A stretch of 64,000 nt of DNA. Source: Fidelibacterota bacterium. GTDB lineage: Bacteria; Fidelibacterota; UBA8477; JABMPR01. Under the pieces are notes generated by a model that saw only the letters and a list, made by a program, of their open reading frames with translations, was not told the origin of the DNA and made no database searches. A program made the position numbers and the translations under genes. The stretch is taken from NCBI GenBank assembly GCA_018650445.1, contig JABIFX010000244.1, forward strand, positions 1 through 64,000, given 5' to 3'. Positions 1,325 through 41,724 of this stretch are shown here, one piece after another. Every line of letters starts with the position of its first letter. Within the stretch, counting starts at the first letter, position 1.

Positions 1325-4243
1325 TTGTGGGGCATTCTTGTTCTGCAATGTGATTTTGGACTTCCCACCAAGGTGGTATTGCCAACCTGGCAAATGACTC
1401 TGACCATTCCCTTAGTTTCTGAAAATTACCCATTTGATGGTTTGCTCGCATCTGATACCACAGGGACCATTCAGGTTTATGGTGATTCTGTAGATACAGA
1501 TGGTGACGGGATCATGGATATTTTGCTTCCGGATACTCTGGCTGATTATCCAGGTGGTCTGTATATCACACTTGAGAATGATTTACCACCAATAACACTT
1601 CCCGACGATATGTTTGTCATTCCTGGTCAGGATCCTATGGCCCTGGGCGTCGGTCCAATTAATATCGGATCACTCCTACCTGCGGTCCTGGATTCAGGAA
1701 TTCACATAGGACCGGTGGAAACAGTCATAAATATGACTGATATGGGATTTGACTATCCCCCCTACACGAACGATACAATTCCTGCATCAACATGTGGTGA
1801 TCCCAATGCAAGACGTTCTGTGACGGTGAATTTTACTTTTGGTGATGCTGATACGAATATGAATTTTGACCAAGATGTAATGTTACCTGGCTATGTTCAT
1901 GCAATTGAAGTGAGTGTGGCCAGCCCAACTGATCTGGGTGGATGTACTGCCTGCGGTACTATTCCTGAAACATTTATATGTGATGATACTCTTTTTGTCC
2001 CAGCAATTCCAGCTGGTGCTGAGATCGTGATTCCTGAGACAATCCTCCCGGGAATCAGGGAAGCTTATGCTTTGCTTCCAGATCCTGCAACCCTACCACC
2101 AGATGTCCCCATTGAAAGTTTTGAGTCAGTTAAGATTCTTACTGGGTCAATCTCTTCGACTATCAATAGTCAACTACCCTTAACCTCTTCTGATCTTGGA
2201 CTACTTGTCTACACAAAAAGTGCTGCTGGTAGGCTTGACACACTTCATAATCACCTCTTCGATAGCATTTCCGAGTATATGCGAGCTGGCGAGGATAGTG
2301 TCAAAATATCCTCACTTGATGGTATAACTTTATTTGACAGTCTCATTTTTGAATTTGGTGGCACTATTAATGGAAATAATGGTGATACCTTAGAATTCCC
2401 AATGGGTGTGAACCCCTTCTTCCACTATAATTTTTCCCTGGATATTGATGGTTTCGAGAGTTTCCAGATAAATATGCGCGACACCACCATGGCTATATAT
2501 CAGGATATGAACACTTCATCACCAGATGCAGCTTTCAGTGTTCAGATTGTTAAAGCGACTTTTAAAGATAATGTGGATCATGCTGATACCAATCGTCTGA
2601 GTATCTCCCTTGAAAATCAAATGGGTCTGGATATTGATGTTTTGCGTATCAAACTCAGAAACTTTTATGCTCATCAAGACAGTTTGGACGCCGGAGGCTA
2701 TGAAGTTATAACCTTTGCATTGCCTGATGGGCAAACGAGAGATACTGTTGTCGTATTAGATGGTCATATACTAAGTAATCTTACGGGGGATGATACACCT
2801 CTAGATTCATTGCTCATTGAGACTGAAATACAATTTAGCTCAGATGGAGGTCCAACCACCATCCCTTATCCACCACCAGATGAAATGGCCATCGATGTTA
2901 ATGTTCTGATGACTTCACTGAGAATCGAGGATCTGGTTGGACTCTTTGATATCAATTTTGGATTAAGTGATCAAGAACAACCACTGAGTTTACCAGGACT
3001 TGTTGGTGGAATCACATTTGGAGAGGCTATCCTTGCCATCACTATGGAGAATGAGTTTGGTGTTTCACCGGGCTTAGGTTTAGAAGTGAAGGGCTTCAGA
3101 GATGGCGACAGTGTTGTCGTGGCGCTTGATCCGGATTCAGTAAATTTTCAATCAGGATCGCCAGATTTACCAGTATCTACAGAGATTCGCATAAGTCGTG
3201 AATATGTGCGACGAACCGTGGCTGGTGATGCAACCATTGTTCAACACTTCCCTGCAGATAATAACATTGTCAATTTAATGGCTATGATGCCTGATATCGT
3301 TTCGGTGGGCGGCGATGCCAGCATTTCACCTAATGGACTTACATCGATTACCGCGGGGGCCGAGATATCAGGAACCTGGCGCTTTGAAATTCCATTTTAT
3401 CTGTCCATTGCTACAGGTGGAGTTGAATTTATGCCTCCAACATTTTCTAAAATGGCTGCATTGGATTCCAGTACTATCAGACAATTAGTGGGAGCTAATG
3501 GTGTTCCAGATGATTCTGATATGCTGCTTAGTTCCACCATTAACACCATCATTTTTAGTGATATTGGACTTGGCTTCGGGTTGGAAATTCTGGTCTCCGA
3601 TATTCAATATTTCCCATTCTATAGCTCCCTCGAAAACCGAGTGCTGGTTTCGGCTGACCTGGATGATGATGGCTCGGCAGATACACTTGATTTGAACCTG
3701 GATACCCTCATTATGCATCCACTGGTGAAGACACTTCAGCTTGAAATTCCCGCAGGTATCGCTGATCCAAGTACAGGTCTGGTGATTCCGGGTATGGAAG
3801 GTTCAGGCCAGTTTAGTTATTCAGCAGATTTCAATTTGACCGATATGGAGGGTGATTCCACCTATGGCACCCTCAAACACAAGAAATATGCATTTCTCGA
3901 TACCTTTATGTTGGCTCGATCTGATTCAGGATTTGCAGATGTTGCTTCCGCGCTGGCTTTTGTGGAGTTGGATGCGCCTACCGTCCCAGATTCTCTCTAT
4001 AACTTGACCTTAAATAGTAGTGGCACTGAATTATGGCTTATTCAAGATGTGACAGCCTATGGTGAGCTGGGTTGGCTTGTGGAGTCCAAAGATCATTACA
4101 TCGCTACAAAGTTTATCCTGGAAGAGACCCCTAATCCTGCCCTGCTACCCTTCTCTGCTGGAATTGACGTTACCGCATTTATGCAATTCATATTGAATTC
4201 TGGTCCCATGTTTAGCAGCGCTGAAGAGGACACCACGCAATGA
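1325..4243 (+). CDS. large secreted beta-rich protein of unknown family
   Basis: I do not recognise a family. The roughly 970-residue product is acidic and rich in Asp, Gly, Thr and Pro with few Lys, as in extracellular beta-sandwich proteins. Two Asp-rich stretches, DTDGDGIMD near residue 58 and DLDDDGSADTLDLN near 775, resemble calcium-binding thrombospondin type-3 loops. A small cysteine cluster (GGCTACG) could form disulfides. The TTG at 1325 would leave only a stub before the mature protein. Upstream in frame, after the ahcY stop, lies a basic then hydrophobic leader (KFHKLKGRSAGLVLAILWG) ending LVLQC, so translation probably starts near 1274 at a non-ATG codon. It overlaps the next gene by 4 nt, which suggests coupled expression with an outer-membrane partner. 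Confidence 0.75.
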   Translation: MWGILVLQCDFGLPTKVVLPTWQMTLTIPLVSENYPFDGLLASDTTGTIQVYGDSVDTDGDGIMDILLPDTLADYPGGLYITLENDLPPITLPDDMFVIPGQDPMALGVGPINIGSLLPAVLDSGIHIGPVETVINMTDMGFDYPPYTNDTIPASTCGDPNARRSVTVNFTFGDADTNMNFDQDVMLPGYVHAIEVSVASPTDLGGCTACGTIPETFICDDTLFVPAIPAGAEIVIPETILPGIREAYALLPDPATLPPDVPIESFESVKILTGSISSTINSQLPLTSSDLGLLVYTKSAAGRLDTLHNHLFDSISEYMRAGEDSVKISSLDGITLFDSLIFEFGGTINGNNGDTLEFPMGVNPFFHYNFSLDIDGFESFQINMRDTTMAIYQDMNTSSPDAAFSVQIVKATFKDNVDHADTNRLSISLENQMGLDIDVLRIKLRNFYAHQDSLDAGGYEVITFALPDGQTRDTVVVLDGHILSNLTGDDTPLDSLLIETEIQFSSDGGPTTIPYPPPDEMAIDVNVLMTSLRIEDLVGLFDINFGLSDQEQPLSLPGLVGGITFGEAILAITMENEFGVSPGLGLEVKGFRDGDSVVVALDPDSVNFQSGSPDLPVSTEIRISREYVRRTVAGDATIVQHFPADNNIVNLMAMMPDIVSVGGDASISPNGLTSITAGAEISGTWRFEIPFYLSIATGGVEFMPPTFSKMAALDSSTIRQLVGANGVPDDSDMLLSSTINTIIFSDIGLGFGLEILVSDIQYFPFYSSLENRVLVSADLDDDGSADTLDLNLDTLIMHPLVKTLQLEIPAGIADPSTGLVIPGMEGSGQFSYSADFNLTDMEGDSTYGTLKHKKYAFLDTFMLARSDSGFADVASALAFVELDAPTVPDSLYNLTLNSSGTELWLIQDVTAYGELGWLVESKDHYIATKFILEETPNPALLPFSAGIDVTAFMQFILNSGPMFSSAEEDTTQ

Positions 4244-8100: not shown

Positions 8101-8850
8101 ATGATCATTCTGCCTCCAACATCGTATCCATTATTTGCCAGATACTCAAAATTCGAGTTTCATCAGGCTTCAACACGATTATCCTATAAGCCTATGGTAT
8201 TCTCAACCAGATACTCAGCCTGCGAATCTCAACTTACCCATTGCTGGAAAGAACTCCAGAGTTCCCATCAGAAGAAAATGTTTCTCCTGGGAGTCATTGT
8301 GACAGCTACGACGCTAAATGATCAGGTCATGTTAAATGTGTGGATACAACGATGCATAGGTGTTTTGGATGAGGAGGCTATTGAAGAGGCTATCCTGCAG
8401 ACACTGCTTTTTGCCGGATTTCCAAAAACTATCGAGGCTCTCAAGCAATTGAGAATCCATTTTCCAGTAAAGCATGCTACCAAACACGTGGGCAATCATA
8501 AGCGAGCCGGTGAAGAGACCAGTCAAATCATCTATGGTAAATATCATTCAAAACTGAAAAAAACTATGGATGAGTTGCACCCGGATTTAACAAGATGGAT
8601 GATTGAAGATGGTTATGGTCGCGTCCTATCCCGTTCTGGGCTTTCCCTTCAGGAGCGGGAAATATCAGTTCTGGCTTCTTTGATGACATCAGGTATGGTC
8701 AATCAGTTTCGAGCTCATGTGCGGGGTGCTTTCTTTGCTGGCGTATCCCGGGTTGATATCATTTGGTTTACAAACATCTTTCAATGTATAATTGCCGCCG
8801 AGTTGAGAGCCGCCTTCAATCAGGTAACGCAAGAGATGTTGAAGACATGA
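8101..8850 (+). CDS. tandem carboxymuconolactone decarboxylase-like protein
   Basis: Two AhpD/CMD-type helical domains are visible. The first is at about residues 55-125 (LLGVIVTATT...EEAILQTLLFAGFPKT). The second is at about 160-245 (GLSLQEREISVLASLMTSGMVNQFRAHVRGAFFAGVS). Members include 4-carboxymuconolactone decarboxylase and AhpD peroxidase partners. No CxxC is present in either domain, so an AhpD-type disulfide reductase role is unlikely and the substrate is unknown. The first 50 residues fit the family poorly and the ATG at 8101 lacks a good Shine-Dalgarno, so a later start (for example the ATG at 8191) is possible. murQ follows 57 nt downstream. Confidence 0.7.
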   Translation: MIILPPTSYPLFARYSKFEFHQASTRLSYKPMVFSTRYSACESQLTHCWKELQSSHQKKMFLLGVIVTATTLNDQVMLNVWIQRCIGVLDEEAIEEAILQTLLFAGFPKTIEALKQLRIHFPVKHATKHVGNHKRAGEETSQIIYGKYHSKLKKTMDELHPDLTRWMIEDGYGRVLSRSGLSLQEREISVLASLMTSGMVNQFRAHVRGAFFAGVSRVDIIWFTNIFQCIIAAELRAAFNQVTQEMLKT

Positions 8851-8907
8851 GTGACAGCCAGAGCCAGAATAGGCAGGATACTATTATAAGTTTTATAGGG
8901 TGGGAGC

Positions 8908-9843
8908 ATGAAGATAATGACATTGAAATTAGGCAACCTTTTAACAGAGCAACGCAACCCAGAGAGTATGAAGCTGGATTCGTCTTCGATTCGTGAAATC
9001 CTTGAAATCATTAACCACGAAGACCATATCATCGCTGGCCAGGTCGCTGAGCAAATGGATGATATTACTCAGGCAACAGAACTGGTAGACCATGCTTTCC
9101 AGAATGATGGGCGCCTGATCTATGTGGGGGCAGGGACTTCAGGACGACTTGGAGTATTAGATGCCTCTGAAATTCCACCCACTTTCAATGCCAGCCCTGA
9201 TAGAGTTCAAGGCTTCATAGCAGGTGGCGACACTGCCTTGCGCACTGCTGTGGAAGGAGCGGAAGATTTCCCAGAAGATGGCCGAAAACTTATTGCTGAT
9301 CTTGCGGTCACGGAAAATGACGTCATCATGGGTATTGCCACAAGTGGAGTCACCCCATACGTGCTAGGTGCCCTGGAACGTGGACGAGAATTGGGAGCAG
9401 CTACAGTATTTTTCACCTGTGCAGACAGAAACCACATCGATATTGATGTTGACGTTCTGATCTCTGTGCCGGTGGGACCAGAAGTGATCACGGGATCAAC
9501 TCGCATGAAATCAGGAACGGCTACTAAGCTGGTCCTCAATATGATTACCACCACAGCCATGGTTAAGAGGGGTAAAGTCTACGAGAATCTCATGGTAGAT
9601 TTAAAGGCTACAAATATCAAATTGGAAGATAGAGCTCGACGTATTGTTTCAACTATCACCTCTTGCAGTTATGAAGAAGCAACTGATCTGCTCGTCAAAT
9701 CAGAAAACTATGTCAAGGTGGCTCTGGTTATGCATAAAAGCCATGCATCCGCAGATGAAAGCCGACTATATTTGGATAGATTTGATGGCAACGTACGCCA
9801 GGCTGTTGATGAACTTGAAAAAACACAGACCCCAAATAAATAG
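8908..9843 (+). CDS. murQ: N-acetylmuramic acid 6-phosphate etherase
   Basis: Cleaves the lactyl ether of MurNAc-6-phosphate to give GlcNAc-6-phosphate and D-lactate, a key step in cytosolic peptidoglycan recycling. The SIS domain carries GAGTSGRLGVLDASEIPPTF near residues 70-90 and the signature GSTRMKSGTATKLVLN near 195-210. The 311-residue length is normal. The N-terminus LLTEQRNPES matches the family. The start could be the ATG at 8908 or at 8917; GGGAG lies better spaced for 8917. No MurNAc kinase (AnmK) or MurNAc transporter is in view. It is the head of a plus-strand run with the phosphohexomutase and isoprenoid genes. Confidence 0.95.
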   Translation: MKIMTLKLGNLLTEQRNPESMKLDSSSIREILEIINHEDHIIAGQVAEQMDDITQATELVDHAFQNDGRLIYVGAGTSGRLGVLDASEIPPTFNASPDRVQGFIAGGDTALRTAVEGAEDFPEDGRKLIADLAVTENDVIMGIATSGVTPYVLGALERGRELGAATVFFTCADRNHIDIDVDVLISVPVGPEVITGSTRMKSGTATKLVLNMITTTAMVKRGKVYENLMVDLKATNIKLEDRARRIVSTITSCSYEEATDLLVKSENYVKVALVMHKSHASADESRLYLDRFDGNVRQAVDELEKTQTPNK

Positions 9844-9864
9844 TGGTCTTAGGAGAATATATAC

Positions 9865-11241
9865 ATGAATGTAAATGATTTTATTTTTAGAGAGTATGAT
9901 ATACGTGGAGAAGTATCAGTCGATTTTCCTGAGGAAGTCGTTGTTGCTCTGGGACGTGCCTTCGCATCAATCGTAAAGCGTCGTGGTGGAAAGAAAATTA
10001 CTCTCTCTGGAGATGTGAGGCTCACAACCCCGCAATTAAAAGAATATTTTAAAGCGGGCGCACTATCTACTGGGATTGATGTCATGGATATTGGCATTCT
10101 GCCTACACCAGGGAATTATTTTAGTGTATTTCATTTTGATGATGTGGATGGTGCCTGTCAGATAACAGGCTCTCATAACCCACCAGAGTTTAATGGATTC
10201 AAATTGACCTTTAATCAGCTTGCCTTTTTTGGTCAGGATATCCAGGACATGCTTACCCTCATAAAAAATGATGATTTTGAGGCGGGCAAAGGTACTGCTT
10301 CAGACTATGATCTATTACCAGAGTATATGGATACAGTCGTCAAGGGTATTGATCTCAAGCGACCCATGCGCATAGTCGTCGATTCAGGAAATGCAGCAGG
10401 TGCACTTTGCGCACCTGAAGTTTATGAGAGAATGGGGTGTGAAGTCACCGCGCTGTATTGCGATGTTGATGGAACCTTCCCTAACCATCATCCTGATCCA
10501 ACGGTTCCCGCCAATCTGAAAGATATCCAGGATGAGGTGAAGCGTGGAGGCTATGATGTCGGTATTGCTTTCGATGGTGACGCTGATCGTCTAGGAGTGA
10601 TTGATGAAAAAGGCCAGGTTGTCTGGGCTGACTATCAGATGATCCTTTTTGCGCAGGATGTGATCAAATCAAAAGATGATAACATTATTTTTGATGTGAA
10701 ATGCTCACAGGCACTTGAGGAAAAAATTCTTGAGTTCGGTGGAACTCCTGTTATGTACAAAACGGGTCACTCACATATCAAATCTCATATGAAAACACTC
10801 AACTCACCGTTCTCTGGGGAGATGAGCGGTCACCTCTTCTTTGCCGATAGATATTATGGTTTCGATGATGCCATTTACAATGGTGGTCGCATGCTGGAAC
10901 TTCTTTCTAAGAGTAATCGACCTCTTTCTGAGATGGTGGATGAACTTCCCAAATACTATTCAACACCTGAGATCAGATTGACATGTAATTCAGACTCTGA
11001 GAAATTTGAAATTGCAGAAAAAGCAGCCAATTATTTCAAAGAGAACTATGATTGCATCGATGTGGATGGGGTGCGTATTCGATTTGGAGATGGATGGGGT
11101 CTGGTGAGAGCATCAAATACACAGCCTGTCCTGGTGGTAAGATTTGAAGCAAAAACATCTGAGCGTATGGAAGAGATTCAAACTTTAGTTATGAATAAAA
11201 TCGGGGAGTTTGGCGAGGTTCGCCTTGACGAGGGACATTGA
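9865..11241 (+). CDS. phosphomannomutase/phosphoglucomutase
   Basis: An alpha-D-phosphohexomutase that interconverts hexose 1- and 6-phosphates for sugar-nucleotide and exopolysaccharide synthesis. All four signature loops are present. The phosphoserine loop is TGSHNPPEFNG (Ser near residue 103). The metal loop is DGDADRLGV near 240, the sugar-binding loop GEMSGH near 318, and the C-terminal phosphate-binding loop ASNTQPVLVVRFEA. The length of 458 residues and the signatures fit the AlgC/ManB type. An AGGAGA Shine-Dalgarno precedes the ATG. The end overlaps the next gene. The substrate, mannose or glucose, cannot be decided; manA at 21-22 kb supports a mannose route. Confidence 0.92.
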   Translation: MNVNDFIFREYDIRGEVSVDFPEEVVVALGRAFASIVKRRGGKKITLSGDVRLTTPQLKEYFKAGALSTGIDVMDIGILPTPGNYFSVFHFDDVDGACQITGSHNPPEFNGFKLTFNQLAFFGQDIQDMLTLIKNDDFEAGKGTASDYDLLPEYMDTVVKGIDLKRPMRIVVDSGNAAGALCAPEVYERMGCEVTALYCDVDGTFPNHHPDPTVPANLKDIQDEVKRGGYDVGIAFDGDADRLGVIDEKGQVVWADYQMILFAQDVIKSKDDNIIFDVKCSQALEEKILEFGGTPVMYKTGHSHIKSHMKTLNSPFSGEMSGHLFFADRYYGFDDAIYNGGRMLELLSKSNRPLSEMVDELPKYYSTPEIRLTCNSDSEKFEIAEKAANYFKENYDCIDVDGVRIRFGDGWGLVRASNTQPVLVVRFEAKTSERMEEIQTLVMNKIGEFGEVRLDEGH

Positions 11242-12259
11242 GCAACGCAAGCGAGATCATCTTGTTCTTGCTCAAAATGATGCTTTAAACTTTTCGATCT
11301 CTGCAGGATTTGATCGCTGGAGATTCATTCATAATGCGCTCCCTGAAATAAACCTCAATGAGATAGATACAGGTACAACATTTTTGGGTAAGGAACTCCA
11401 GTTTCCCCTCCTGATCAGCTCAATGAGCGGCGGGATTGAGGAGAGTTTTAACTTTAATGCGAACCTGGCAACAGCGGCTGAATCTGTGGGCTGTGCTCTG
11501 GGTTTGGGCAGCGTTCGAGCAGGACTTGAAAATGAACAGGCTCGTGACAGCTTTTTAATTGCCAGGGAAAAGGCACCAACAGCCATCATTATGGCTAATC
11601 TGGGAATTGCCCAGATTATGGATTCTCAATCTATGGACAGGGTTGCAACATTTTGCGGTGACTTACAGGCAAATGCGCTGATTATTCATTTGAATTCCCT
11701 CCAAGAGGCTTTTCAGCCTGAAGGGGATACTCAGTTCAAGGGTGCGTTGAATGCCATTAAGACATGGGTGCGTGAATTTCCGCTGCCCCTAATCGTCAAA
11801 GAGGTGGGACAGGGTCTTTCCATTGAAGTGATTCAGAAACTTCAGGAAGCAGGCATAAAGATTATTGATATTGCAGGAGCTGGGGGTAGCAACTGGATAT
11901 CCATTGAACGTGAGCGTTTATCAGAAGATCAATCCATATTGAAACAAACAGCCCATGAATTTGCTAACTGGGGTGAGCCAACTGCTGAAGTATTGGAAAC
12001 CCTGGGTACCGATATGTGTGTCATTGCCAGTGGTGGATTAAAACGACCTCTCGATCTGCCTAAAGCGCTTGCTCTGGGCGCTAATATGGGCGGTATTGCA
12101 GGTGCATTGTTGAAACAGGCCATGGCTACCGATACCGGTCAGCTCATCGAACAATTGCTTGTCTGGAAGAAAACTTTGAAAATGGCTATGTTTGGCGTTG
12201 GAGTCAGCATGATTGATGAATTGATTGGGAATCGCCATCTTTTGCACAAAATTGACTGA
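11225..12259 (+). CDS. fni: type 2 isopentenyl-diphosphate delta-isomerase
   Basis: FMN- and NADPH-dependent isomerase that interconverts IPP and DMAPP, the isoprenoid building blocks. Family features are the N-terminal RKRDHLVLA, SSMSGG, GLGSVRAG, VKEVGQG, GAGGSNW and a C-terminal FMN phosphate region ASGGLKRPLDL. The track starts at a TTG at 11210. A second TTG at 11225 has GAGG at good spacing and gives the usual short N-terminus (MTRDIEQRKRDH), so I prefer it. Either start overlaps the phosphohexomutase end. It is followed by a prenyl diphosphate synthase, so the pair makes an allylic primer and elongates it. Confidence 0.93.
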   Translation: MTRDIEQRKRDHLVLAQNDALNFSISAGFDRWRFIHNALPEINLNEIDTGTTFLGKELQFPLLISSMSGGIEESFNFNANLATAAESVGCALGLGSVRAGLENEQARDSFLIAREKAPTAIIMANLGIAQIMDSQSMDRVATFCGDLQANALIIHLNSLQEAFQPEGDTQFKGALNAIKTWVREFPLPLIVKEVGQGLSIEVIQKLQEAGIKIIDIAGAGGSNWISIERERLSEDQSILKQTAHEFANWGEPTAEVLETLGTDMCVIASGGLKRPLDLPKALALGANMGGIAGALLKQAMATDTGQLIEQLLVWKKTLKMAMFGVGVSMIDELIGNRHLLHKID

Positions 12260-12282
12260 TCATTGGACATCTAGAAGGTATC

Positions 12283-13275
12283 ATGAAGGGAAATATGGAT
12301 ATTAATGTAAAAGCTAGAATTGAAGCATGGCGGATAGCCATATCCCAACATCTCCACAATCCAAGTTTCAATACTGATCCAGTTTATCTCTCTGAGCCTA
12401 TGAATTACGCCCTCAGGGCTGAAGGCAAGATGCTTCGACCAGCACTCTGTCTGGCTGCTGCTGAAGCAGTAGGAGGTGATTGGCACAACGCAGTTACCGT
12501 TGGTGCTGCACTTGAAATATTTCACACTTTTACGCTCGTTCATGATGACATCATGGATGGTGATGAGCTCAGACGAGGAATTCCGACCCTCCACAAAGCA
12601 TTTGGTAACAATCGAGCCCTGTTGAGTGGTGACACTTTGCTTATCTATGTATATCAACTCCTGGCTGATATTGAGGCCTCAAAATTTACCCGCGTCTTCC
12701 GCGTTTTTAATGATGGTGCCATGGATGTGTGCAGGGGCCAAGGATGGGACATGGAGTTTGAGAATAGTGAGCATGTTGAACCCCAGCAATATGAGATGAT
12801 GATAGACCTGAAGACGGGTGCTCTCATCAGGCTTGCCTGCCATCTTGGGGGTATTATGGGTGGTGGAAGCGATGCTGCCATCGAAGCCCTTTCGCGATTT
12901 GGGGTTTTACTAGGAAGGGCCTTTCAGATGCAGGATGATCTCCTGGAAGTAACCTCCTCCTCTGCTACCATGGGCAAAAGTCTGGGTAGTGATGTCCTGA
13001 ACGAAAAAAAAACCTGGATCTGGATCGACTTGAAAAGCAGGCTGACTGAAAGTGAGTTAAAGGAATGGCAAAATGTTCAAAATGGTGGTCAGTTAGCTGA
13101 ACATCATCGAGATCAGGTGAAGCAATGGATGATTGATCATGGTACCATTAAGCGTGCTCAAGATTTGATTGCGTCCTGGATTTCTGAGGCAGACTCCCTG
13201 TTAAGTTCGTCTCTATTTAAGAACACCGATATGCTCAAGGTCTTATCAGACAACATTCTAAACCGACAAAATTGA
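12283..13275 (+). CDS. polyprenyl synthetase, probably GGPP synthase type
   Basis: Trans-prenyltransferase that condenses IPP with allylic diphosphates. The first Asp-rich motif is DDIMD at residues 88-92 and the second is DDLLE near 213. GKMLRPALCLA supplies the diphosphate-binding Lys and Arg. The first motif has no two-residue insertion and carries Phe at the fifth position before it. This pattern is associated with archaeal-type (type I) geranylgeranyl diphosphate synthases rather than bacterial FPP synthases. Chain length is therefore inferred as C20. It follows fni by 23 nt in the same direction. Confidence 0.88.
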   Translation: MKGNMDINVKARIEAWRIAISQHLHNPSFNTDPVYLSEPMNYALRAEGKMLRPALCLAAAEAVGGDWHNAVTVGAALEIFHTFTLVHDDIMDGDELRRGIPTLHKAFGNNRALLSGDTLLIYVYQLLADIEASKFTRVFRVFNDGAMDVCRGQGWDMEFENSEHVEPQQYEMMIDLKTGALIRLACHLGGIMGGGSDAAIEALSRFGVLLGRAFQMQDDLLEVTSSSATMGKSLGSDVLNEKKTWIWIDLKSRLTESELKEWQNVQNGGQLAEHHRDQVKQWMIDHGTIKRAQDLIASWISEADSLLSSSLFKNTDMLKVLSDNILNRQN

Positions 13276-32051: not shown

Positions 32052-32082
32052 TCTCACTAGCACAGAAACACAATAGGGGATG

Positions 32083-32155
<73 letters not shown>

Positions 32156-32459: not shown

Positions 32460-32960
32460 ATGGAAATTTTAACTTTATTCCTGATTATTACCATTACAGC
32501 CATCTCAGCTGTCACGATCTGGATGAATCTGCCTGGAAGTTTCCTCATGCTCATATTTATCTTTGTCTGGGCTTGGTTTGGTGATTTTGTTCTCATCTCA
32601 CTCCCTGAAATATTTATCATATTGGGACTCCTGGTTTTGCTCGAAATACTTGAGTTTGCCCTGGGTGGTCTGGCAGCCCAATACAGTGGGGCTGAAAAAC
32701 GCTCAGCTTTTCTTGCCCTTTTGGGTGGAGTTCTGGGAACAATCGTTTTAGGAAGTTTGTTCTTTATTGTAGGTGCAATACTTGGCTTGTTGATAGGATC
32801 CTATCTGGGGGCCTATTTAGGTGAACTCCAGGCAGGCAAATCTCCTGCGGAAGCAAGACGAGCTGCTCTTGCTGCCCTTATGGGAAGTATTGCAGGGAAG
32901 CTGTTAAAAAGTGCCACTACGGTGATAATTGGAGTCTGGATGATCCAGGAAATTCTATGA
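32460..32960 (+). CDS. DUF456 membrane protein
   Basis: Small, very hydrophobic protein (166 residues) with the DUF456 pattern. There are two N-terminal helices, then LVLLEILEFALGGLAAQYSGAEKRSAFLALLGGVLGTIV, a glycine-rich helix pair and GELQAGKSPAEARRAALAALMG. Function unknown. It leads a five-gene plus-strand run with overlapping or near-touching genes; the DUF4159 start overlaps its stop (ATGA). No good Shine-Dalgarno is seen before its own ATG. Confidence 0.85.
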   Translation: MEILTLFLIITITAISAVTIWMNLPGSFLMLIFIFVWAWFGDFVLISLPEIFIILGLLVLLEILEFALGGLAAQYSGAEKRSAFLALLGGVLGTIVLGSLFFIVGAILGLLIGSYLGAYLGELQAGKSPAEARRAALAALMGSIAGKLLKSATTVIIGVWMIQEIL

Positions 32961-33616
32961 ATATGAAGACTAAAATGGCCTGTCTTTTATACCTGGCTGT
33001 GGGGCTTACATCGCTCACTGCTCAGGACCTGCATATAACGCGCTTACATTATAATGGTGGTGGTGACTGGTATGCAAATCCCAGCTCACTCCCCAACCTT
33101 ATTCACTTTATCAGTAGTGAAACCAACATTCGTGTGGATCCTGAAGAATCGAGAGTCAAGATCACGGATACAGACCTGTATAATCATCCCTTCCTGTACA
33201 TGACGGGACACGGTAATGTGAATTTCAGTAAAGAAGAGGTACATAAACTTCGGGACTATCTGACTGGAGGTGGCTTCTTGCATGCCGATGATAACTATGG
33301 CATGGATGCATCGTTCCGCAGGGAGATGAAAAAGGTGTTTCCCAAAAAGGAATGGGTTGAGTTACCACATGATCATCCGCTTTTCAGCTCATATTTTTCT
33401 ATCAATAACGGTTTACCAAAGATTCATAAGCATGATGAAAAAGCCCCTCAAGCCCTGGCACTCTTTCATCATGGTCGTATCATTGCTCTCTATACCTATG
33501 AAAGTGATCTGGGAGATGGCTGGGAAGACATTGAAGTTCACAAAGATGGGGAAAAGAAGCACCGCGCTGCCCTGGAGATGGGCACGAATATTCTAATTTA
33601 TGCGTTTACCCATTAA
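32957..33616 (+). CDS. DUF4159 domain protein, secreted
   Basis: Signal peptide MKTKMACLLYLAVGLTSLTAQ, then a DUF4159 domain with the family's RLHYNGGGDWYANPSSLPNL start, PFLYMTGHGNVNF and LRDYLTGGGFLHADDNYGMD. The fold is related to class I amidotransferase-like or ThuA-like domains, but no catalytic triad can be assigned. A late motif HPLFSSYF is typical of the family. DUF4159 genes commonly sit with large von Willebrand/BatA-like or DUF4175 genes in FCB bacteria. Here the DUF4175-like gene begins 3 nt after the stop. Confidence 0.87.
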   Translation: MNMKTKMACLLYLAVGLTSLTAQDLHITRLHYNGGGDWYANPSSLPNLIHFISSETNIRVDPEESRVKITDTDLYNHPFLYMTGHGNVNFSKEEVHKLRDYLTGGGFLHADDNYGMDASFRREMKKVFPKKEWVELPHDHPLFSSYFSINNGLPKIHKHDEKAPQALALFHHGRIIALYTYESDLGDGWEDIEVHKDGEKKHRAALEMGTNILIYAFTH

Positions 33617-33619
33617 GAC

Positions 33620-36600
33620 ATGACTCACCCGATCAATTCTCCAGCAGCACAGGCTGCAACTGCCACTCCAGAGCTCCTGCAACTGGCTCAACATGCCCGG
33701 AGTGAAGCCCGGGGAAAAGGTGCCCTATTGGGAGTTGCTGGATTTACTCTCATTTCAATTTTGGTGGCTCTTTTTGTGTGGTTGGAAAGCTTTCGCTACT
33801 TCTCTCCAGAATTTAAAACATTTTTTCTCAGCGTATTAGGTGGCCTGGGTCTGCTTTTAGTGGGAGGGATTCTGGGGATATATTGGCTGTTAAAAAGACA
33901 GCAAATTGAATCCACCAAACCAGAAAATCTGGCTCTCCAAATCGGCGAAAAACTCCCTGAAATTGGGGATCGGATTCTAAATGCAGTTCAACTGAGTAAC
34001 AGGGAAACCCCTGATGGTATTTCTGATAGTCTGCATCAAGCAGCTGTTCAATCAGGTATTAAGGTCATTGAACAGGTTCCTGGTGGTCTATTATTCCCAA
34101 CCGACAAAATCTACTACTACCTGAAGAGAACTGGCATTGGCATCGCTATACTTCTCTTGCTGTACGTTATTAATTTTCAGGATACAAATGCTGCCATTAC
34201 TCGTCTGAGTCAACCTGAAGTCGCCTTTGAATATCCATTACCCCTTCAATTGAATCTAAACACAACGACACATCAGGTATTAGCAGGTGATAGCCTCATT
34301 TTAACAGGGCTTATTAGCGGACGAGCAATAAATAAAGTTGAGTTGATTATCCAAACTCGGAAAGACACTAGCATTTTCCCTCTGGATGTAACGGATAAAA
34401 ATTTCAAGCTGCCCATGAATCATTTGCTGAATAGTTTTACAGCGATTGCCCGGGTTGCTAACAATCGCTCATGGGAACCCTGGGAAGAGATCCTCTCAAA
34501 TGAGGTGAATATCCAGGTTATCAATCGTCCATTGGTCCAGGATTTAACTGTTCGCATTCGACCTCCTTCATATACAAGGCTACCAACAGAAATATTTACC
34601 CGCAACATCATGGACATGAGCGGATTTAGAGGCTCTCGTATAAGTATTGAGGGACTGGCTTCGAAAGATATCGCCTCTGGAGTACTTCATTTCGAAAATT
34701 CGAAATCAATCCCACTTGAGATGATGGGAACTCGTTTTAAGGCCGCGTTTACCCTCAATAAGGCTGACCAGGTCTGGATTGAGCTGGTAGATCATGAGGA
34801 TGTCAATAATCTGGACCCATTGGTCTATCCCATTTATGTCGCCACAGATATTGCACCCATTATCAGAGTTTTAGTTCCTGGCCAGGATGTGATCATTGGT
34901 GATAAGATGATTCTGCCTACCCGTTTGAAATTGGATGATGATTTTGGCTTCTCCAGCCTGGAGCTAAACTACCAGATACAACATCCTGATTATCTCATGG
35001 TAGACACATCAGTCTATAAAGTGAAGATTGATTTACCCAGAACCGATCTGAGCTCTCTGGAATTTAACTTTCCCTGGGACTTGAATGATGTGAGTATGAT
35101 GCCCGAAGATGCCATACAATATTGGTATACCGTTTGGGATAACAATAGTGTGGATGGGTATCAAAAGGCATCCTCCCAAAAATGGTTAGCTCGATTGCCT
35201 TCCCTGGATGAGATGTTTGAGGAAATTGCTCAGGGTAACGAACAGGTCAAGCAAGAGCAGGAAGATATCCTTGAAGTCGTTAAGGAAATCAAAGAAAAGG
35301 TGAGCGAATTAGCCCTGGAAGTACAAAAGGATCCTAATCTTTCCTGGGAACAACAACAGGAAGCCAGTGAGGCCATTGAGCAGGTCAAAGACCTGAAAGA
35401 ACAATTGGATAACATCAGTGAACAGTTAGATCAGATGATGACCTCCGCCGAAGAGCAGAACCTTTTTAGCGATGAGACCCTGGATAAGTATGCAGAACTC
35501 CAACAACTTATGGAGCAACTCATTACTCCAGAACTTCAGGAAGCCATGGAACGTCTCCAGGAAGCCATGGAAAAAGACAATCCCAGGGAGATGGAAGCTG
35601 CCCTTGAGGATTTTCAGGCTGCCATGGAAAATTTTCAGAAAAGCGTGGAGCGTACACTGGAGATATTCAAACAGGTTGAGATTGAGCAAAAAATCGATGA
35701 GCTGGCTACCCGCTTGAATGATCTGGCCGAAAGACAGGAAACTTTAAACTCCGATATTCAGGATGGTGACACAGCTGATGCAGCTATGCAGGAAGAGAAA
35801 ATATCAAATGATTTTGATGAAGCTCAAGAATTAGCAGAGACTTTAGAGGATCTTCTAAACCAATCTGAAGGCCTCTCTTCTGAATCTGTTCAGGAATTAC
35901 AGGATCAAATGGAGCAGGAGCAAATTAGTCAAAATTTGGATGAAGCGGCTTCGCTCATGGAATCCGGTCAAATGTCCAAAGCTATGCCTCCTTCAGAGCA
36001 AGCCGAGAAGTCATTGAAAAAGATGGCAGCTCAATCAAGCGAGATGCAAGCGGGATTGCAGCAGCAAATGATGGAAGATGTAATGTCTGAATTTCGATCA
36101 GCCTTGCTAAAGACCTTAAGACTTTCGCAGTCCCAGGAGGATTTGGAAGGACCTACCGCCAGGACCTCACGCCAGAGTTCACTGCTCAGGGATTATGCCG
36201 ATTCACAGATGGGTCTCATGCAGGGTCTGCAGCAATTGGCTGCAGAACTTCAGGATTTGGGTAACAAAACATTTGCCGTTTCACCTTCAATGGGTCGATC
36301 CATGGGTGTCATACAAGCCCATATGCAGGAAGCTATCAGAGGTCTTGAAGCGAGAAATCCCCGGCAATCCTCACAATCACAGGCTGCTGCACGAGAAAGC
36401 TTGAATCGCATGGCCCGACAATTGGCCAATTCCATGGAATCACTCCAGCAATCTGGGGAATCCAGTGGTTTTAGCGAATATATGCAGCAATTGCAGCAAA
36501 TGGCCGGACAACAACAGGGTCTCAATCAGCAAACCATGATGCAAATGGGTGCTGGAAGTCCCTCCATGATGCAACAACTCGCCCGCCAACAAATGCAACT

Positions 36601-37000
36601 GCGTGAGGCACTCAAACAGATTGAGAATGGCATGGGCTCAGATTCCCGCATGCTTGGAGATCTGGGTAAAATTGGTGATGAAATGGAAGAGGTCGCTAAA
36701 AAGCTGCAGGGGAAAAGACCCTCTCAAAAGATTCACGAGCAACAGGAGCGCATACTTAGTAGACTCCTGGATGCCCAGCGATCTGCTACCAAGAAAGATT
36801 TCAGCAAGAAGAGGAAATCCGAGACAGCTGGGTCGAATCCATTCTGGACTGGTAGGGATGAACTACCTGAAGATCTCGGTGAAACTCGTAATCAGCTCTA
36901 CGAGGAATTGATATTTAGCCTTAAACAGGATTACACGCGGGAAGAGCAAGCTCTGATCCGCGAATACTTCAATCGGCTGGAGGCTGAAATCAATGAATAG
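33620..37000 (+). CDS. DUF4175-like giant coiled-coil membrane protein
   Basis: 1126 residues. Two N-terminal helices (about 35-56 and 67-92) and a third near 168-185 anchor it. Then come a beta-rich region (about 200-510) and long acidic coiled coils from about 535 to 790 (repeated EQ/LE heptads). A Met/Gln-rich low-complexity tail holds many SMMQQ and QQQG runs. It ends in a short domain whose last residues are EYFNRLEAEINE. The architecture fits DUF4175 family proteins of Bacteroidota and relatives; function unknown. It overlaps the TPR gene by 8 nt. Confidence 0.8.
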   Translation: MTHPINSPAAQAATATPELLQLAQHARSEARGKGALLGVAGFTLISILVALFVWLESFRYFSPEFKTFFLSVLGGLGLLLVGGILGIYWLLKRQQIESTKPENLALQIGEKLPEIGDRILNAVQLSNRETPDGISDSLHQAAVQSGIKVIEQVPGGLLFPTDKIYYYLKRTGIGIAILLLLYVINFQDTNAAITRLSQPEVAFEYPLPLQLNLNTTTHQVLAGDSLILTGLISGRAINKVELIIQTRKDTSIFPLDVTDKNFKLPMNHLLNSFTAIARVANNRSWEPWEEILSNEVNIQVINRPLVQDLTVRIRPPSYTRLPTEIFTRNIMDMSGFRGSRISIEGLASKDIASGVLHFENSKSIPLEMMGTRFKAAFTLNKADQVWIELVDHEDVNNLDPLVYPIYVATDIAPIIRVLVPGQDVIIGDKMILPTRLKLDDDFGFSSLELNYQIQHPDYLMVDTSVYKVKIDLPRTDLSSLEFNFPWDLNDVSMMPEDAIQYWYTVWDNNSVDGYQKASSQKWLARLPSLDEMFEEIAQGNEQVKQEQEDILEVVKEIKEKVSELALEVQKDPNLSWEQQQEASEAIEQVKDLKEQLDNISEQLDQMMTSAEEQNLFSDETLDKYAELQQLMEQLITPELQEAMERLQEAMEKDNPREMEAALEDFQAAMENFQKSVERTLEIFKQVEIEQKIDELATRLNDLAERQETLNSDIQDGDTADAAMQEEKISNDFDEAQELAETLEDLLNQSEGLSSESVQELQDQMEQEQISQNLDEAASLMESGQMSKAMPPSEQAEKSLKKMAAQSSEMQAGLQQQMMEDVMSEFRSALLKTLRLSQSQEDLEGPTARTSRQSSLLRDYADSQMGLMQGLQQLAAELQDLGNKTFAVSPSMGRSMGVIQAHMQEAIRGLEARNPRQSSQSQAAARESLNRMARQLANSMESLQQSGESSGFSEYMQQLQQMAGQQQGLNQQTMMQMGAGSPSMMQQLARQQMQLREALKQIENGMGSDSRMLGDLGKIGDEMEEVAKKLQGKRPSQKIHEQQERILSRLLDAQRSATKKDFSKKRKSETAGSNPFWTGRDELPEDLGETRNQLYEELIFSLKQDYTREEQALIREYFNRLEAEINE

Positions 37001-38897
37001 AGTCATCACAGGACTTTTGCTTGTTATTCTATCCATACCTTTACTGGTATTGGATACTGCAAATGCACAAAGCTTACCAGGTCGAACCAGGTCAAAGGAT
37101 CAGATATTAGAGCAGCGGGCATCGTCTCTTGCCCGGCTTGGTAGAACTGAAGAAGCAGTGGATATCTATCTCGAAATCTTGTATAAAAATCCACGCAATT
37201 ATAATGTCTATTTCCGAGTAAGCAATCTCATGCCAGGTCCGGAGAATGCTCTGGTTCTGCTTGAAATCCTGGAGGATATTCTCAAAACCCAATCAAAGAA
37301 TACACGTCTTTTGGCTGAGAAGGGCCGTTTGCTCTATTTACTTGATCGGAAAGAGGAAGCTGTACAGGATTGGCAACGGATTATTCAGAAAAGCCGGAAT
37401 GACAAATTTACATATACCTCCCTTACCAATGCTATGCTTCAAGCTGGTGCAACTACTGAAGCCATTGAGCTATTAAATGAGAGCAGAATTACTTTAAATG
37501 ACCCTCAGGCTTTTGCCTTTGATCTGGCACGCATATATGCTGCAGCGCATGATTATGATCTGGCCAGCAGGGAATACCTCGCCCATCTTGACAAAAATCC
37601 AGGCATGTTGGACCACATAAGCAATCAACTCATCCGACTTCTTGAAAATGACGGCGCCTTTGAGCTGATAAATGCCAATATGAAGCAGAGAATGGCACTA
37701 CCTGGGGAACATCAAACTCTGGTTTTGGCTCAGGCAAAAATTCTTCTCCATGAACAGCACTATGCAGAATGTGCCCGGACCATTCTTGCTTCCGATGTAA
37801 GTCGTTCCATGAAACATGTCATGGCAATCGCCAACGATCTAATGGCTGAGCAGGCCTGGGTTCCTGCCGCTGATTTATTTCTATTTATCTCTGCAAACAG
37901 TAGGGATAAGCGTCAAATTGGTGAAGCACTTCTTAACCTGGCATCCACCTATGAAAACCGACTCCATCGAGAGGAAAGCTATAAATCCTTGAGTGGTTAT
38001 TTCCAGGGGAATCAATTTTTGGATCTTGATGTTAGATTCCCCAGTGATGAGGATGCCTCGCTGGGAAGGACATTGAAGCTTTATGATAGTTTGCAAACGT
38101 TGCTCCCTCGCACCCATGAGGCGTTTCAAGCTTCGTTTCACATAGCCGAAATTCAATTGATGGTGAGCGGTGATGTGGATCGCGCCATTCGTGGCTTTCA
38201 AAACATTTTTTCCAATGCCCCTCGCAATGATATTCGACTGGCAGGGGGTAGAAGATTGGTGGATGCCTGGCTGGTAAAGGGTGATACTTCCGCTGCCATC
38301 CGTACTCTCGATGAGATTGTGGGTAAATTGAACCTCGATGAGGATGCACCACAAATTGTTGCCTCCAGAATCAAAATCAGAATTCATCAAGGTGACCTTC
38401 CTCGCTTAAAAAAGGAATTACTCAATTTGAGCGGTGCCGCATCTCCTGCAGACCCAATATTTAATGACGGTCTTGAATTGATGGCACTGCTGGAAGGCAA
38501 CGGTGAGGAAAATGACCCTCAACTACAAAGTTATCTGAAAGCAGAAAGATTTGTGAGCCAGCACAAACTCACAGAAGCTATCAAAACTCTCGGGGACATT
38601 CGAGGTGGGTCAACTTCCATTGCAGATGAAGCCGGTGTGAGATCAATTCAGATCCTCCTGGCTCTGGGTAATTCAAACGATGCAGTCAAAGCGATGGACA
38701 ACTTTTTGAGTACCTATTCCGATTCACCGTGGAGAGCGCATGTCCTGGTCTGGCGAGGAGAAGATCTTCAATTCACACAAAATAACCCTCAGGCTGCTAT
38801 TCCATTCTATGAGGAAGTGATCATCAATCACCCTCAATATCTTGGTATTCAAGAGCTGAGAATCAGGTTAAGAAGTCTAATAGGTGGTGGTTCATGA
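36993..38897 (+). CDS. secreted TPR-repeat protein
   Basis: An N-terminal signal sequence ends near TANAQS, followed by about 600 residues of helical repeats. Units such as LARLGRTEEAVDIYLEILYKNP, LLYLLDRKEEAVQDWQRIIQKS and DVDRAIRGFQNIFSNAP follow the TPR pattern. TPR arrays usually scaffold protein complexes. The gene overlaps its DUF4175-like neighbour and its own downstream partner (4 nt), so all are probably made together as parts of one envelope complex; the partner is unknown. Confidence 0.8.
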   Translation: MNRVITGLLLVILSIPLLVLDTANAQSLPGRTRSKDQILEQRASSLARLGRTEEAVDIYLEILYKNPRNYNVYFRVSNLMPGPENALVLLEILEDILKTQSKNTRLLAEKGRLLYLLDRKEEAVQDWQRIIQKSRNDKFTYTSLTNAMLQAGATTEAIELLNESRITLNDPQAFAFDLARIYAAAHDYDLASREYLAHLDKNPGMLDHISNQLIRLLENDGAFELINANMKQRMALPGEHQTLVLAQAKILLHEQHYAECARTILASDVSRSMKHVMAIANDLMAEQAWVPAADLFLFISANSRDKRQIGEALLNLASTYENRLHREESYKSLSGYFQGNQFLDLDVRFPSDEDASLGRTLKLYDSLQTLLPRTHEAFQASFHIAEIQLMVSGDVDRAIRGFQNIFSNAPRNDIRLAGGRRLVDAWLVKGDTSAAIRTLDEIVGKLNLDEDAPQIVASRIKIRIHQGDLPRLKKELLNLSGAASPADPIFNDGLELMALLEGNGEENDPQLQSYLKAERFVSQHKLTEAIKTLGDIRGGSTSIADEAGVRSIQILLALGNSNDAVKAMDNFLSTYSDSPWRAHVLVWRGEDLQFTQNNPQAAIPFYEEVIINHPQYLGIQELRIRLRSLIGGGS

Positions 38898-40153
38898 TGT
38901 GGTTGAAACAATTATTAGGAATATTTCTACTGGTGGGTACGCTGTGTTCACAAAAGATTTTGATCCCAATGGACGAAACCCAAACCGATCATCTCAAAGC
39001 GTATGGCGTCGCTTTTTGGGTTCTGGAGCGCGATATCGACATCGAATGGTTGTTGAATTATCGTGGCGGGAGTTTTCTTATCGATAATTATTCAGATATC
39101 GTTCGAGAATTGAGATTAAGGGATGTGAAATTTGAGACAGCCCCCCCTGGCGCCGAGATTAATATTTATGCAACTATTGAAGCCAATAATATGGATATTG
39201 TCCTCCTGGAAAAGGCACCAAAGGTTGCCGTTTATTCACCACCTGGGAAACAGCCTTGGGATGATGCAGTCACATTAGCACTGGAATATGCTGAAGTTGA
39301 ATATGAGGTGATCTGGGATGCCGAGGTTCTGGATGGGAAACTCAGTGATTATGACTGGCTGCACCTGCACCATGAAGATTTTACAGGGCAGTATGGAAAA
39401 TTCTATCGCAATTATCGTAATGCTGCCTGGTACCGAAAACAACAAATTGAATATGAAGCTTTTGCCACTCTGAGAGGCTACTCCAGTGTCTCTGAGGAGA
39501 AAAAAGCGGTTGCTCGAAGAATTCGGGACTATGTGTTCAATGGAGGTTTTCTGTTTGCCATGTGTAGTGCGACGGATGCCCTGGACATAGCTTTATCTGC
39601 AGAGGGAGTGGATATAGTAGCTACACCTTATGATCATGATCCAGTTGATCCTCATGCTCAGTCTAAACTGGCATTTGGGAAAACCATGGCGTTTGAGAAT
39701 TATCAACTGATTACCGATCCCATGGTATATGAGTATAGTAATATTGATGAACCACCCAGCGATCGACCACGAACTAGAGGAGCTGAGGCTGACTATTTCA
39801 CCCTCTTTGAGTTCTCTGCAAAATGGGATCCTGTACCCACCATGCTCACCCAGAATCATGTCGCTGTGATTAAAGGCTTCATGGGGCAAACAACAGGTTT
39901 TCGAAGATCCACGATTAAAAAGCATGTGGTGGTTATGGGTGATGTCCCGGGCCAGGAACAGGTAAAATACATCCACGGGGCTCTGGGAAAGGGAACCTTC
40001 ACTTTTCTTGGTGGTCATGATCCAGAAGACTATCAACACTTTGTGGGGGATCCTCCAACACAGCTATCCTTGCATCGGAATTCACCGGGTTATCGATTAA
40101 TCCTCAATAATATCCTTTTTCCAGCAGCCAAGAAGAAGGAACGCAAAACCTAG
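38894..40153 (+). CDS. 'asparagine synthetase B-like' secreted protein (ThuA-like fold)
   Basis: Signal peptide (MWLKQLLGIFLLVGTLCSQ), then a 390-residue family often labelled asparagine synthetase B in FCB genomes. I see no Asn-synthetase motifs. The sequence instead shows VAVYSPPGKQPWDDAVTLALEYAEV and DYVFNGGFLFAMCSATDALDIAL, which resemble class I amidotransferase/ThuA-like Rossmann strands with a Cys after the elbow. LKAYGVAFWVLERDIDIEWLLNYRGGSFL is the family's N-terminal signature. Its operon position after DUF4159 and TPR genes is typical in relatives, and the function is unknown. Confidence 0.72.
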   Translation: MMWLKQLLGIFLLVGTLCSQKILIPMDETQTDHLKAYGVAFWVLERDIDIEWLLNYRGGSFLIDNYSDIVRELRLRDVKFETAPPGAEINIYATIEANNMDIVLLEKAPKVAVYSPPGKQPWDDAVTLALEYAEVEYEVIWDAEVLDGKLSDYDWLHLHHEDFTGQYGKFYRNYRNAAWYRKQQIEYEAFATLRGYSSVSEEKKAVARRIRDYVFNGGFLFAMCSATDALDIALSAEGVDIVATPYDHDPVDPHAQSKLAFGKTMAFENYQLITDPMVYEYSNIDEPPSDRPRTRGAEADYFTLFEFSAKWDPVPTMLTQNHVAVIKGFMGQTTGFRRSTIKKHVVVMGDVPGQEQVKYIHGALGKGTFTFLGGHDPEDYQHFVGDPPTQLSLHRNSPGYRLILNNILFPAAKKKERKT

Positions 40154-40219: not shown

Positions 40220-40876
40220 ATGAAAACGTTTATCGGATTTATTATTACACTCGTTTGCTTAAGTGTCCAGGCACAGGACTCAAGCTATAGCTATGCAGGT
40301 TGGGGCAAACCCGGGTCAGGGCAGGCCGTACCTTTGAAGGTCTTGAAAGATAAATCATTTACTCAGGTTATCCTCACTGATGAAAACCCGGTATTAATCA
40401 AACGATTCGACGAAAAGCATGCTCTCCATGAACACATAGAGAATGAATATGATGAATATGGAAATCATCTATCCAGCAAACTGTTTGATGCCACAGGACG
40501 TCTCCGAGAGGAAAGCAAATTCCAGAATGACCCCACTGAGATGGCTCTATTCCGGACTATTTTCGGCAACACTTTTGTCCCTGCCAATTCTAATTTTATG
40601 ATTCGCAGGGAATACAACGAATTTGAACGCGAAACAGGTTATTTCATCGTAGGCGTGATGGGACAAACACTTTTCTCCCGAGTTACTCTGTATCGGGAAG
40701 ATCGACGCAAAGATCATGAAATCCTCAGAGATGATCTGGCAGACAAAATTCTAACTGAGCGTCGCTACAAATACATTGATTCTGAGAATCGTACCGTGCT
40801 GGCAGAGTTTGACGGCACAGGCAAGATGGTGCAGCGAGTAGTGCTCTTTGATCACCATGATATTATCCAGGAATAA
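40220..40876 (+). CDS. secreted protein of unknown family
   Basis: Signal peptide MKTFIGFIITLVCLSVQAQ, then a charged domain with YDEYGNHLSSKLFDATGRLREE. This resembles the YD-type repeats of the lipoprotein at 17328. No family recognised. AGGAGG lies about 22 nt upstream of the ATG, farther than usual, so the start is somewhat uncertain. The stop (TAA) abuts the coding region of the RMD-like TPR gene. Confidence 0.6.
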   Translation: MKTFIGFIITLVCLSVQAQDSSYSYAGWGKPGSGQAVPLKVLKDKSFTQVILTDENPVLIKRFDEKHALHEHIENEYDEYGNHLSSKLFDATGRLREESKFQNDPTEMALFRTIFGNTFVPANSNFMIRREYNEFERETGYFIVGVMGQTLFSRVTLYREDRRKDHEILRDDLADKILTERRYKYIDSENRTVLAEFDGTGKMVQRVVLFDHHDIIQE

Positions 40877-40893
40877 TGAATAAGGAGGATAGT

Positions 40894-41679
40894 GTGATAA
40901 GAAGTATTTCAATATTGTTGATCCTGAGTTTGGCCGTGTTTGGTGTCGCCCAGGATGCTGTAGAAGACACTGAAGTTCTAGTAGATCCCATTGCTGACTT
41001 GCTGATGCAGGCAGAAGTTGCTCACGATGCTAAGGATTTCGAAGCCACCATGAAGCTCCTCGAAGCAGCTGAGCAGCTCGATGGTCAAAATGAAGAAGTA
41101 TTGTGGAAGATCAGTCGCGGATTTTTTGATTTTGCTGATCGTAAACCCAACGATGCTGAATATAAAAAACAGTACATCTATGATGGTAGGACCTATGCAG
41201 AAAAAGCACTTGCCCTGAATGATAAGAGTGCTGGTGGACATAAATGGTATGCCATTCATCATGGTCAGATTGGTGAAGCCGAAGGCACCGAACAGAAAAT
41301 TAAAAATTCCTATGGTATGCGAGATCATACCCTGTTGGCAATCAAGTATGATCCTTCAAATGCTGGGAATTACCATGTCATGGGTCGCTGGCATTATGCC
41401 CTGTCCGACTTATCATGGATTGAACGCCAGATTGCCAGTATAATTTACGCCACACCCCCAGAAGCTTCATTTGAGGAAGCCCTGGAATTTTTTAAGAAAG
41501 CTCATGATCTGGATAAAAAAGATATCCGCAATATGCTTTACATCGGATACTGTTACGATGAGCTTGACGATGAAAAAGCCGCTGCTGATTGGCTCAATAT
41601 GGCTATCAATACCAATGCATCAAGTGAAAGCGATCGTGGTTTGCAAGCGGAGGCCAAAAAAGCTCTAAACGATCTATAA
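40894..41679 (+). CDS. TPR protein resembling eukaryotic RMD/FAM82 family
   Basis: A signal peptide (MIRSISILLILSLAVFGVAQ) precedes TPR-like helices. Segments WYAIHHGQIGEAEGTEQKIKNSY, AIKYDPSNAGNYHVMGRWHYAL, LSWIERQIASIIYATPPEASFEEALEFFKKA and MLYIGYCYDELDDEKAAADWLNMAI follow the pattern of regulator-of-microtubule-dynamics (RMDN) proteins. In those proteins TPRs bind microtubules or membranes, but the bacterial role is unknown. The track starts at 40876; TAAGGAGGATA is placed 5 nt before the GTG at 40894, so I use the GTG. Confidence 0.72.
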   Translation: MIRSISILLILSLAVFGVAQDAVEDTEVLVDPIADLLMQAEVAHDAKDFEATMKLLEAAEQLDGQNEEVLWKISRGFFDFADRKPNDAEYKKQYIYDGRTYAEKALALNDKSAGGHKWYAIHHGQIGEAEGTEQKIKNSYGMRDHTLLAIKYDPSNAGNYHVMGRWHYALSDLSWIERQIASIIYATPPEASFEEALEFFKKAHDLDKKDIRNMLYIGYCYDELDDEKAAADWLNMAINTNASSESDRGLQAEAKKALNDL

Positions 41680-41691
41680 AAACATTTTGAA

Positions 41692-41724
41692 AAGGGCACT
41701 CCCTGTGAGTGCCCTTCTTTTTTT
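41692..41724 (+). terminator. rho-independent terminator after the TPR gene
   Basis: AAGGGCACTC and GAGTGCCCTT form a perfect 10-bp stem with a 5-nt loop, then CTTTTTTT. It lies 12 nt after the stop at 41679 and ends the 40.2-41.7 kb unit. Confidence 0.9.

Follow-up and report, generated by a model that had tools for sequence, protein, structure and literature searches.

Systems of the MoxR-DUF58-BatA kind are already known and poorly understood. The canonical example is the Bat operon of Bacteroides aerotolerance, with the order MoxR-DUF58-BatA-BatB-BatC-BatD. In R. leguminosarum, the MoxR protein RL3499 plays an important part in keeping the membrane intact and in cell morphology (PMC3893208), and mutants of cmdA-D have an altered envelope and cell shape (PMC5700661); defects of this sort upon loss are known for this species only. 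The families DUF4159 and DUF4175, both encoded at the locus described here, receive almost no mention in the literature: of 5.39 million papers searched, one names either of them.

Gene orders in other bacteria connect these families with the MoxR-DUF58-BatA kind. Sinorhizobium meliloti Ak57 (L174) carries MoxR, DUF58 and a 937-aa fusion protein, with a BatA domain at its N-terminus and a DUF4159 domain at its C-terminus. From the gene order, we take this arrangement to be equivalent to the cmdABCD operon of R. leguminosarum (RL3499-RL3502); the cmd type would then have MoxR, DUF58 and a BatA::DUF4159 fusion in one operon. The 18.8 kb of Sinorhizobium DNA around the cmd-like operon has no annotated DUF4175 gene, and none from alphaproteobacteria was found in plasmids by tblastn. 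On plasmid L080 of Gemmatirosa kalamazoonensis (Gemmatimonadota), a contiguous run on one strand has the order TPR/peptidase-MA, DUF4159, MoxR (8701-9741), DUF58 (9824-10786), BatA (10959-13010) and DUF4175 (13033 on). The Gemmatirosa DUF4175 was matched at E 1e-56 by residues 1-525 of the window DUF4175 profile, from which the helical region was excluded, indicating that the similarity does not stem from coiled-coil composition. On the Planctomyces plasmid pPL62-3, DUF58, BatA and VWA genes stand in a row, with no DUF4159 or DUF4175 annotated.

The window (the whole 64,000-nucleotide stretch analysed, from a Neomarinimicrobiota MAG) contains five plus-strand open reading frames, which were confirmed at the coordinates assigned to them in an earlier, sequence-only reading: a DUF456 gene (32460..32960, 166 aa), a DUF4159 gene (32957..33616, 219 aa), a DUF4175 gene (33620..37000, 1126 aa), a TPR gene (36993..38897, 634 aa) and a fifth gene, whose product has a GATase1/ThuA-like fold (38894..40153, 419 aa). 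Their successive junctions are −4, +3, −8 and −4 nt, and the tight same-strand coupling claimed by that reading, with gaps of 3 nt or overlaps, was borne out. Upstream of the run lies a minus-strand tRNA-Thr (32082-32155), and a promoter scan gave no signal above shuffles. The description as a five-gene operon was too narrow at the 3′ end. After a 66-nt gap, in which no plus-strand terminator-like site was found, follows a plus-strand gene for a 218-aa exported protein of no recognised family (40220..40876), which among the loci read in two phyla is present only in family f1. It is overlapped by a plus-strand gene for an RMD1-3/TPR-like exported protein (40876..41679, Pfam RMD1-3 E 1e-33), and then comes a strong plus-strand hairpin resembling an intrinsic terminator (41692..41716, 10 pairs, then a T-run). 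The two additional genes and the hairpin, which is likely to be the end of the transcription unit, make a seven-gene unit probable in the window genus, with 40876-41679 as its last gene.

Conservation of the locus was measured in 60 Neomarinimicrobiota relatives and 60 Zixibacteria genomes. At the Pfam cut-off, DUF4159 was found in 55/60 of the former, and DUF4175 (profile A1) in 52/60. Three of the 55 DUF4159 matches belong to a different gene, being a longer paralogue in G020 and G022 (open frame 426-434 aa, adjoining ExbB and ExbD in G020) and a weak match in G027. Counting only the true form, 52/60 genomes have both genes and 8/60 have neither. The two genes are adjacent on one strand in 51 of the 52 carriers, which argues that the layout is not due to chance; in the one exception they fall on two separate contigs. 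DUF4159 is present in 57/60 Zixibacteria genomes, and at all 21 Zixibacteria loci read it is followed by DUF4175. A TPR gene is found downstream of DUF4175 at most loci of both phyla; in Zixibacteria it follows directly at 18 of the 21, and in truncated form at one more. The trees of the three proteins each split Neomarinimicrobiota from Zixibacteria, so the cluster seems to be of old, vertical descent. The pairwise distances of the proteins correlate at 0.71-0.89, which would be expected from vertical descent alone as well. The functional unit has three genes, DUF4159-DUF4175-TPR, not five: conserved order holds for these and fails for DUF456 and the fifth gene, and the conserved envelope unit proposed earlier survives as the three core genes across two phyla, not as one fixed five-gene machine.

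Several loci differ in detail around the core. In family f2 (L062), a gene for a CotH-kinase/lamin-tail/Por-secretion protein (1346-3709) is inserted between DUF4175 and TPR, and a 710-aa gene before TPR in L140 is possibly related to it. Many Zixibacteria loci (L101-L121) have a large gene after the core; at one (L010:15545-18250) a TMEM260-like O-mannosyltransferase/TPR gene lies about 430 nt downstream, and at several, the genes ahead of the core have the sizes of the SecD-SecF pair that was recognised in L108. Order-level relatives (L072:5839-8373, L073) also carry a DUF4159 protein of another type (426-456 aa), which in L072 adjoins ExbB, ExbD and a 1037-aa TPR protein.

The window DUF4159 protein matches its Pfam family over the complete profile (229.3 bits against a cut-off of 25.9, E 4e-68, profile 1-202 of 202). 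It belongs to a GATase-like family and lacks the catalytic Cys. It has a Lys-rich start and a hydrophobic run ending in TAQ, and is predicted to be exported; the hydropathy window flagged the N-terminus of the TPR protein and not this one, so the call rests on our reading of the sequence. The TPR protein, which matched Pfam TPR families, is likewise predicted to be exported from its signal-like, hydrophobic N-terminus. DUF4175 matched profile positions 185-755 of 825 (43.3 bits, cut-off 27.3). Its predicted transmembrane helices lie at about 32-60, 65-92 and 165-185, the second and third being separated by a loop of ~70 residues that is predicted to be cytosolic. Three predicted Ig/FN3-like domains (about 209-525) and a long predicted helical region (about 529-1057) follow. 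The AlphaFold model has a mean pLDDT of 81; Foldseek returned only generic Ig tandems, and a PDB profile search only designed coiled coils. DUF4175 identity is 72-95% to close 'Candidatus Neomarinimicrobiota' MAGs and 26% to a more distant relative from Zixibacteriota, and was 27-33% to other families and 23-26% to Zixibacteria. Acinetobacter AdvA, from the one paper found for DUF4175, was set aside as a comparator, being a cell-division protein whose architecture as described is not comparable.

Compared with the known systems, the window core shares with the cmd type a membrane/periplasmic design and, as seen in Sinorhizobium, the DUF4159 domain, but has a free, exported DUF4159 protein with DUF4175 and TPR, and MoxR-DUF58 at another locus. 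It resembles the Gemmatirosa run in its homologous DUF4159, full-length DUF4175 and TPR gene, the last lying upstream in Gemmatirosa; unlike the window core, that run is unsplit, its ATPase half interleaved with the membrane/periplasmic half. Its likeness to the Bat operon lies in an envelope location, exported parts with TPR and Ig-like domains, and a MoxR-DUF58 partner. BatA, BatB, BatC and BatD are not in the window operon, the Bat genes of this genome forming a separate BatA-BatB-TPR-BatD cluster (L046), and the operon contains no MoxR, DUF58 or vWA gene, with no MoxR or DUF58 gene found close by either. The locus had been put forward as the best candidate for an undescribed system, which is too strong, because DUF4159 (and in Gemmatirosa also DUF4175) sits with MoxR-DUF58-BatA in the Gemmatirosa and Sinorhizobium orders.

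Two MoxR-DUF58 pairs were found elsewhere in the window genome. One (L044) is of a subtype that we call A and adjoins ABC/GldG-like genes. The other (L045, on contig G000:C28) has a 1004-aa PD40 protein between its members and is assigned to subtype B by the two trees as well as by score. In MoxR and DUF58 trees covering both phyla, A and B form separate clades, with a support of 1.0 for A. Zixibacteria subtype A stands with canonical BatA/BatB genes (L170, L172, L173); at two other Zixibacteria loci (L157, L160), subtype B lies near a Gemmatirosa-type BatA. The Gemmatirosa pair itself scores higher against B than against A (367 vs 274 bits for MoxR, 178 vs 99 bits for DUF58), its tree position relative to the two clades depending on midpoint rooting. 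Being nearer B, it indicates that FCB genomes carry, at a locus apart from the core, the subtype that in Gemmatirosa is embedded with DUF4159/DUF4175. Two MoxR-DUF58 subtypes can in this way be told apart, one going with Bat and one with DUF4159/DUF4175.

The occurrence of the core was compared with that of subtype B in the 60 Neomarinimicrobiota genomes, where A and B were told apart by how high unbroken matches scored (about 236-290 vs 142-173 bits). Both were found in 48 genomes, neither in five, and seven were discordant (48/4/3/5, Fisher p 0.001). The five that lack both and keep A are G007, G008, G027, G045 and G051. Three of them are streamlined 1-Mb genomes of one family, f7, and G008 is 63% complete, so the co-absence, which rests on about two independent events, carries modest weight. 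The core was found without subtype B in G016, G038, G042 and G055, and subtype B without the core in G010, G020 and G022. In G022, TPR and the fifth gene are still there, on a contig that begins a little upstream, and the absence of the core there may therefore be an assembly effect. Zixibacteria gave no co-loss signal, the three genomes without DUF4159 keeping subtype B.

The explanation we favour, with modest confidence, is that the core is the inner-membrane/periplasmic half of a MoxR-DUF58 envelope-maintenance system of the cmd/Bat-like kind, whose operon was split in Neomarinimicrobiota and Zixibacteria. Since MoxR-DUF58 is not in the operon, as it is in the one-operon cmd and Bat gene orders, the core is classed as a variant of that system, and the split, two-locus form with DUF4175 and TPR is best read in this way. 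We infer a physical complex, ATPase coupling in trans and an envelope function. The cytosolic MoxR AAA+ ATPase of subtype B (contig G000:C28), together with DUF58, would remodel or load a membrane complex anchored by DUF4175, whose short cytosolic loop could face DUF58/MoxR. The Ig domains and long helical region of DUF4175 would extend into the periplasm, where exported DUF4159, as a ligand-binding component, and TPR, as a scaffold, may dock on them. The complex would support assembly or upkeep of the cell wall or outer membrane, with DUF456 and the fifth, GATase-fold protein as probable accessory passengers. The link gives the DUF4159 and DUF4175 families a testable role, and a likely ATPase partner can be named in the window genome itself.

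An alternative that we regard as unlikely is a self-contained periplasmic complex operating without MoxR, with DUF4175 as a rod, DUF4159 as a ligand- or metal-binding enzyme and TPR as a scaffold, for which the Gemmatirosa and rhizobial links would be ancestral only. This is consistent with the absence of MoxR from the core operon at all loci read in two phyla. It is also consistent with the residues of the FCB DUF4159 proteins, in which G84-H85-G86, D112, H157, H159 and D160 are invariant (alignment A3), the last three within an HxHD motif. The window protein aligns over its whole domain with the solved structure 4i66 (Hoch_4089) of the same family (E 4e-18), which is without the GHG and HxHD residues, and by sequence reading the His residues were not seen in the Gemmatirosa and Sinorhizobium domains either. 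However, subtype B is kept almost wherever the core is, and is lost along with it in five genomes.

The same residues would allow a combination of the two readings, in which FCB DUF4159 is a periplasmic enzyme or a metal/ligand sensor (GHG, D112, HxHD) on the DUF4175 rod and TPR scaffold, and is driven in trans by MoxR-DUF58. Such an ATPase-powered complex has not been described before, and we consider this version rather doubtful.

One trans-envelope machine of five proteins, including DUF456 and the fifth protein, was the proposal of the sequence-only reading. It is favoured by the tight coupling in the window and by the position of the fifth gene, which in 37 Neomarinimicrobiota genomes follows DUF4175 at a distance of 1-4 kb. 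The three-gene core does stay together, but the outer two members do not stay with it. DUF456 is a small glycine-zipper membrane protein (78.1 bits against a Pfam cut-off of 29.4, E 1e-21), and nothing indicates that it forms the pore once suggested. At the loci read it precedes DUF4159 only in families f1, f2, f3 and f8 of Neomarinimicrobiota, it is missing from most families, and it is absent from the Zixibacteria core loci read; it is an optional accessory passenger of the operon. The fifth gene lies on another contig or strand, apart from the core, in family f6, and in Zixibacteria 59/60 genomes carry it, yet it is absent from all 21 core loci that were read. As a general rule the five-protein machine is largely refuted, and we judge it quite improbable overall; within family f1 it could hold.

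The fifth protein had been labelled 'asparagine synthetase B', which is wrong. It matched no Pfam or NCBIfam family, including the Asn synthase and GATase2 domains, and a GATase1-like fold is predicted. The likeness to ThuA stands at the level of the fold of GATase1-like proteins and does not extend to PF06283, which gave no match up to E 1. A PDB profile search gave no match. The AlphaFold model (pLDDT 75) has low-confidence insertions, and with it Foldseek returned 2gk3, 3soz, a GH42 domain and the IFT52 N-domain at low TM-scores. Among the best of these are the GATase1-like proteins 2gk3 and 3soz (STM3548, STM1381), to which identity is about 13-14%, with TM-scores no higher than 0.47; from these the fifth protein differs in its ~420-aa length with those insertions and in its predicted export. 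The top match, 8aa2_G, was rejected for its poor superposition (rmsd 16). Identity is 63-90% across families and 63-72% beyond family f1, so that the fifth protein is far better conserved between families than DUF4175, and it has an invariant C224 in the motif FAMCSATD and also 'HLHHEDFTGQYGKF'. The misleading label is thereby removed from a very conserved protein of no known family, which from sequence and model looks like an enzyme with its own role, accessory to the core. In Zixibacteria, 6 of 13 fifth-gene loci have a RarA-like ATPase gene one or two places away, and these 13 loci have no functionally telling consistent neighbour.

Energisation of the complex by an ExbB/ExbD-type proton channel in place of MoxR is highly improbable. 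In order-level relatives the other type of DUF4159-domain protein does adjoin ExbB and ExbD, along with a large TPR protein. However, this 426-aa protein is a divergent paralogue (95 vs 229 bits), and the core loci read, whose neighbours are partly annotated, have no conserved pair of ExbB/ExbD size next to them.

The C-terminal tail of the fifth protein is conserved and rich in Lys and Arg (KKKERKT), with its final Lys-Thr invariant in all families aligned, which would be odd in an exported protein. Two extra partial copies lie on contigs G000:C259 and G000:C204 of the window MAG (contamination 4.6%), perhaps foreign contigs. Plasmid pCRULAC1 of Corynebacterium crudilactis carries a solitary DUF4159 gene (L079:8983-9600), which shares 53% identity with that of the window and keeps its invariant residues. 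The gene sits in a multidrug-resistance region near ISVsa3, between aminoglycoside-resistance genes and dihydrofolate reductase; no other full copy was found in the plasmid collection, and the gene is probably captured environmental DNA.
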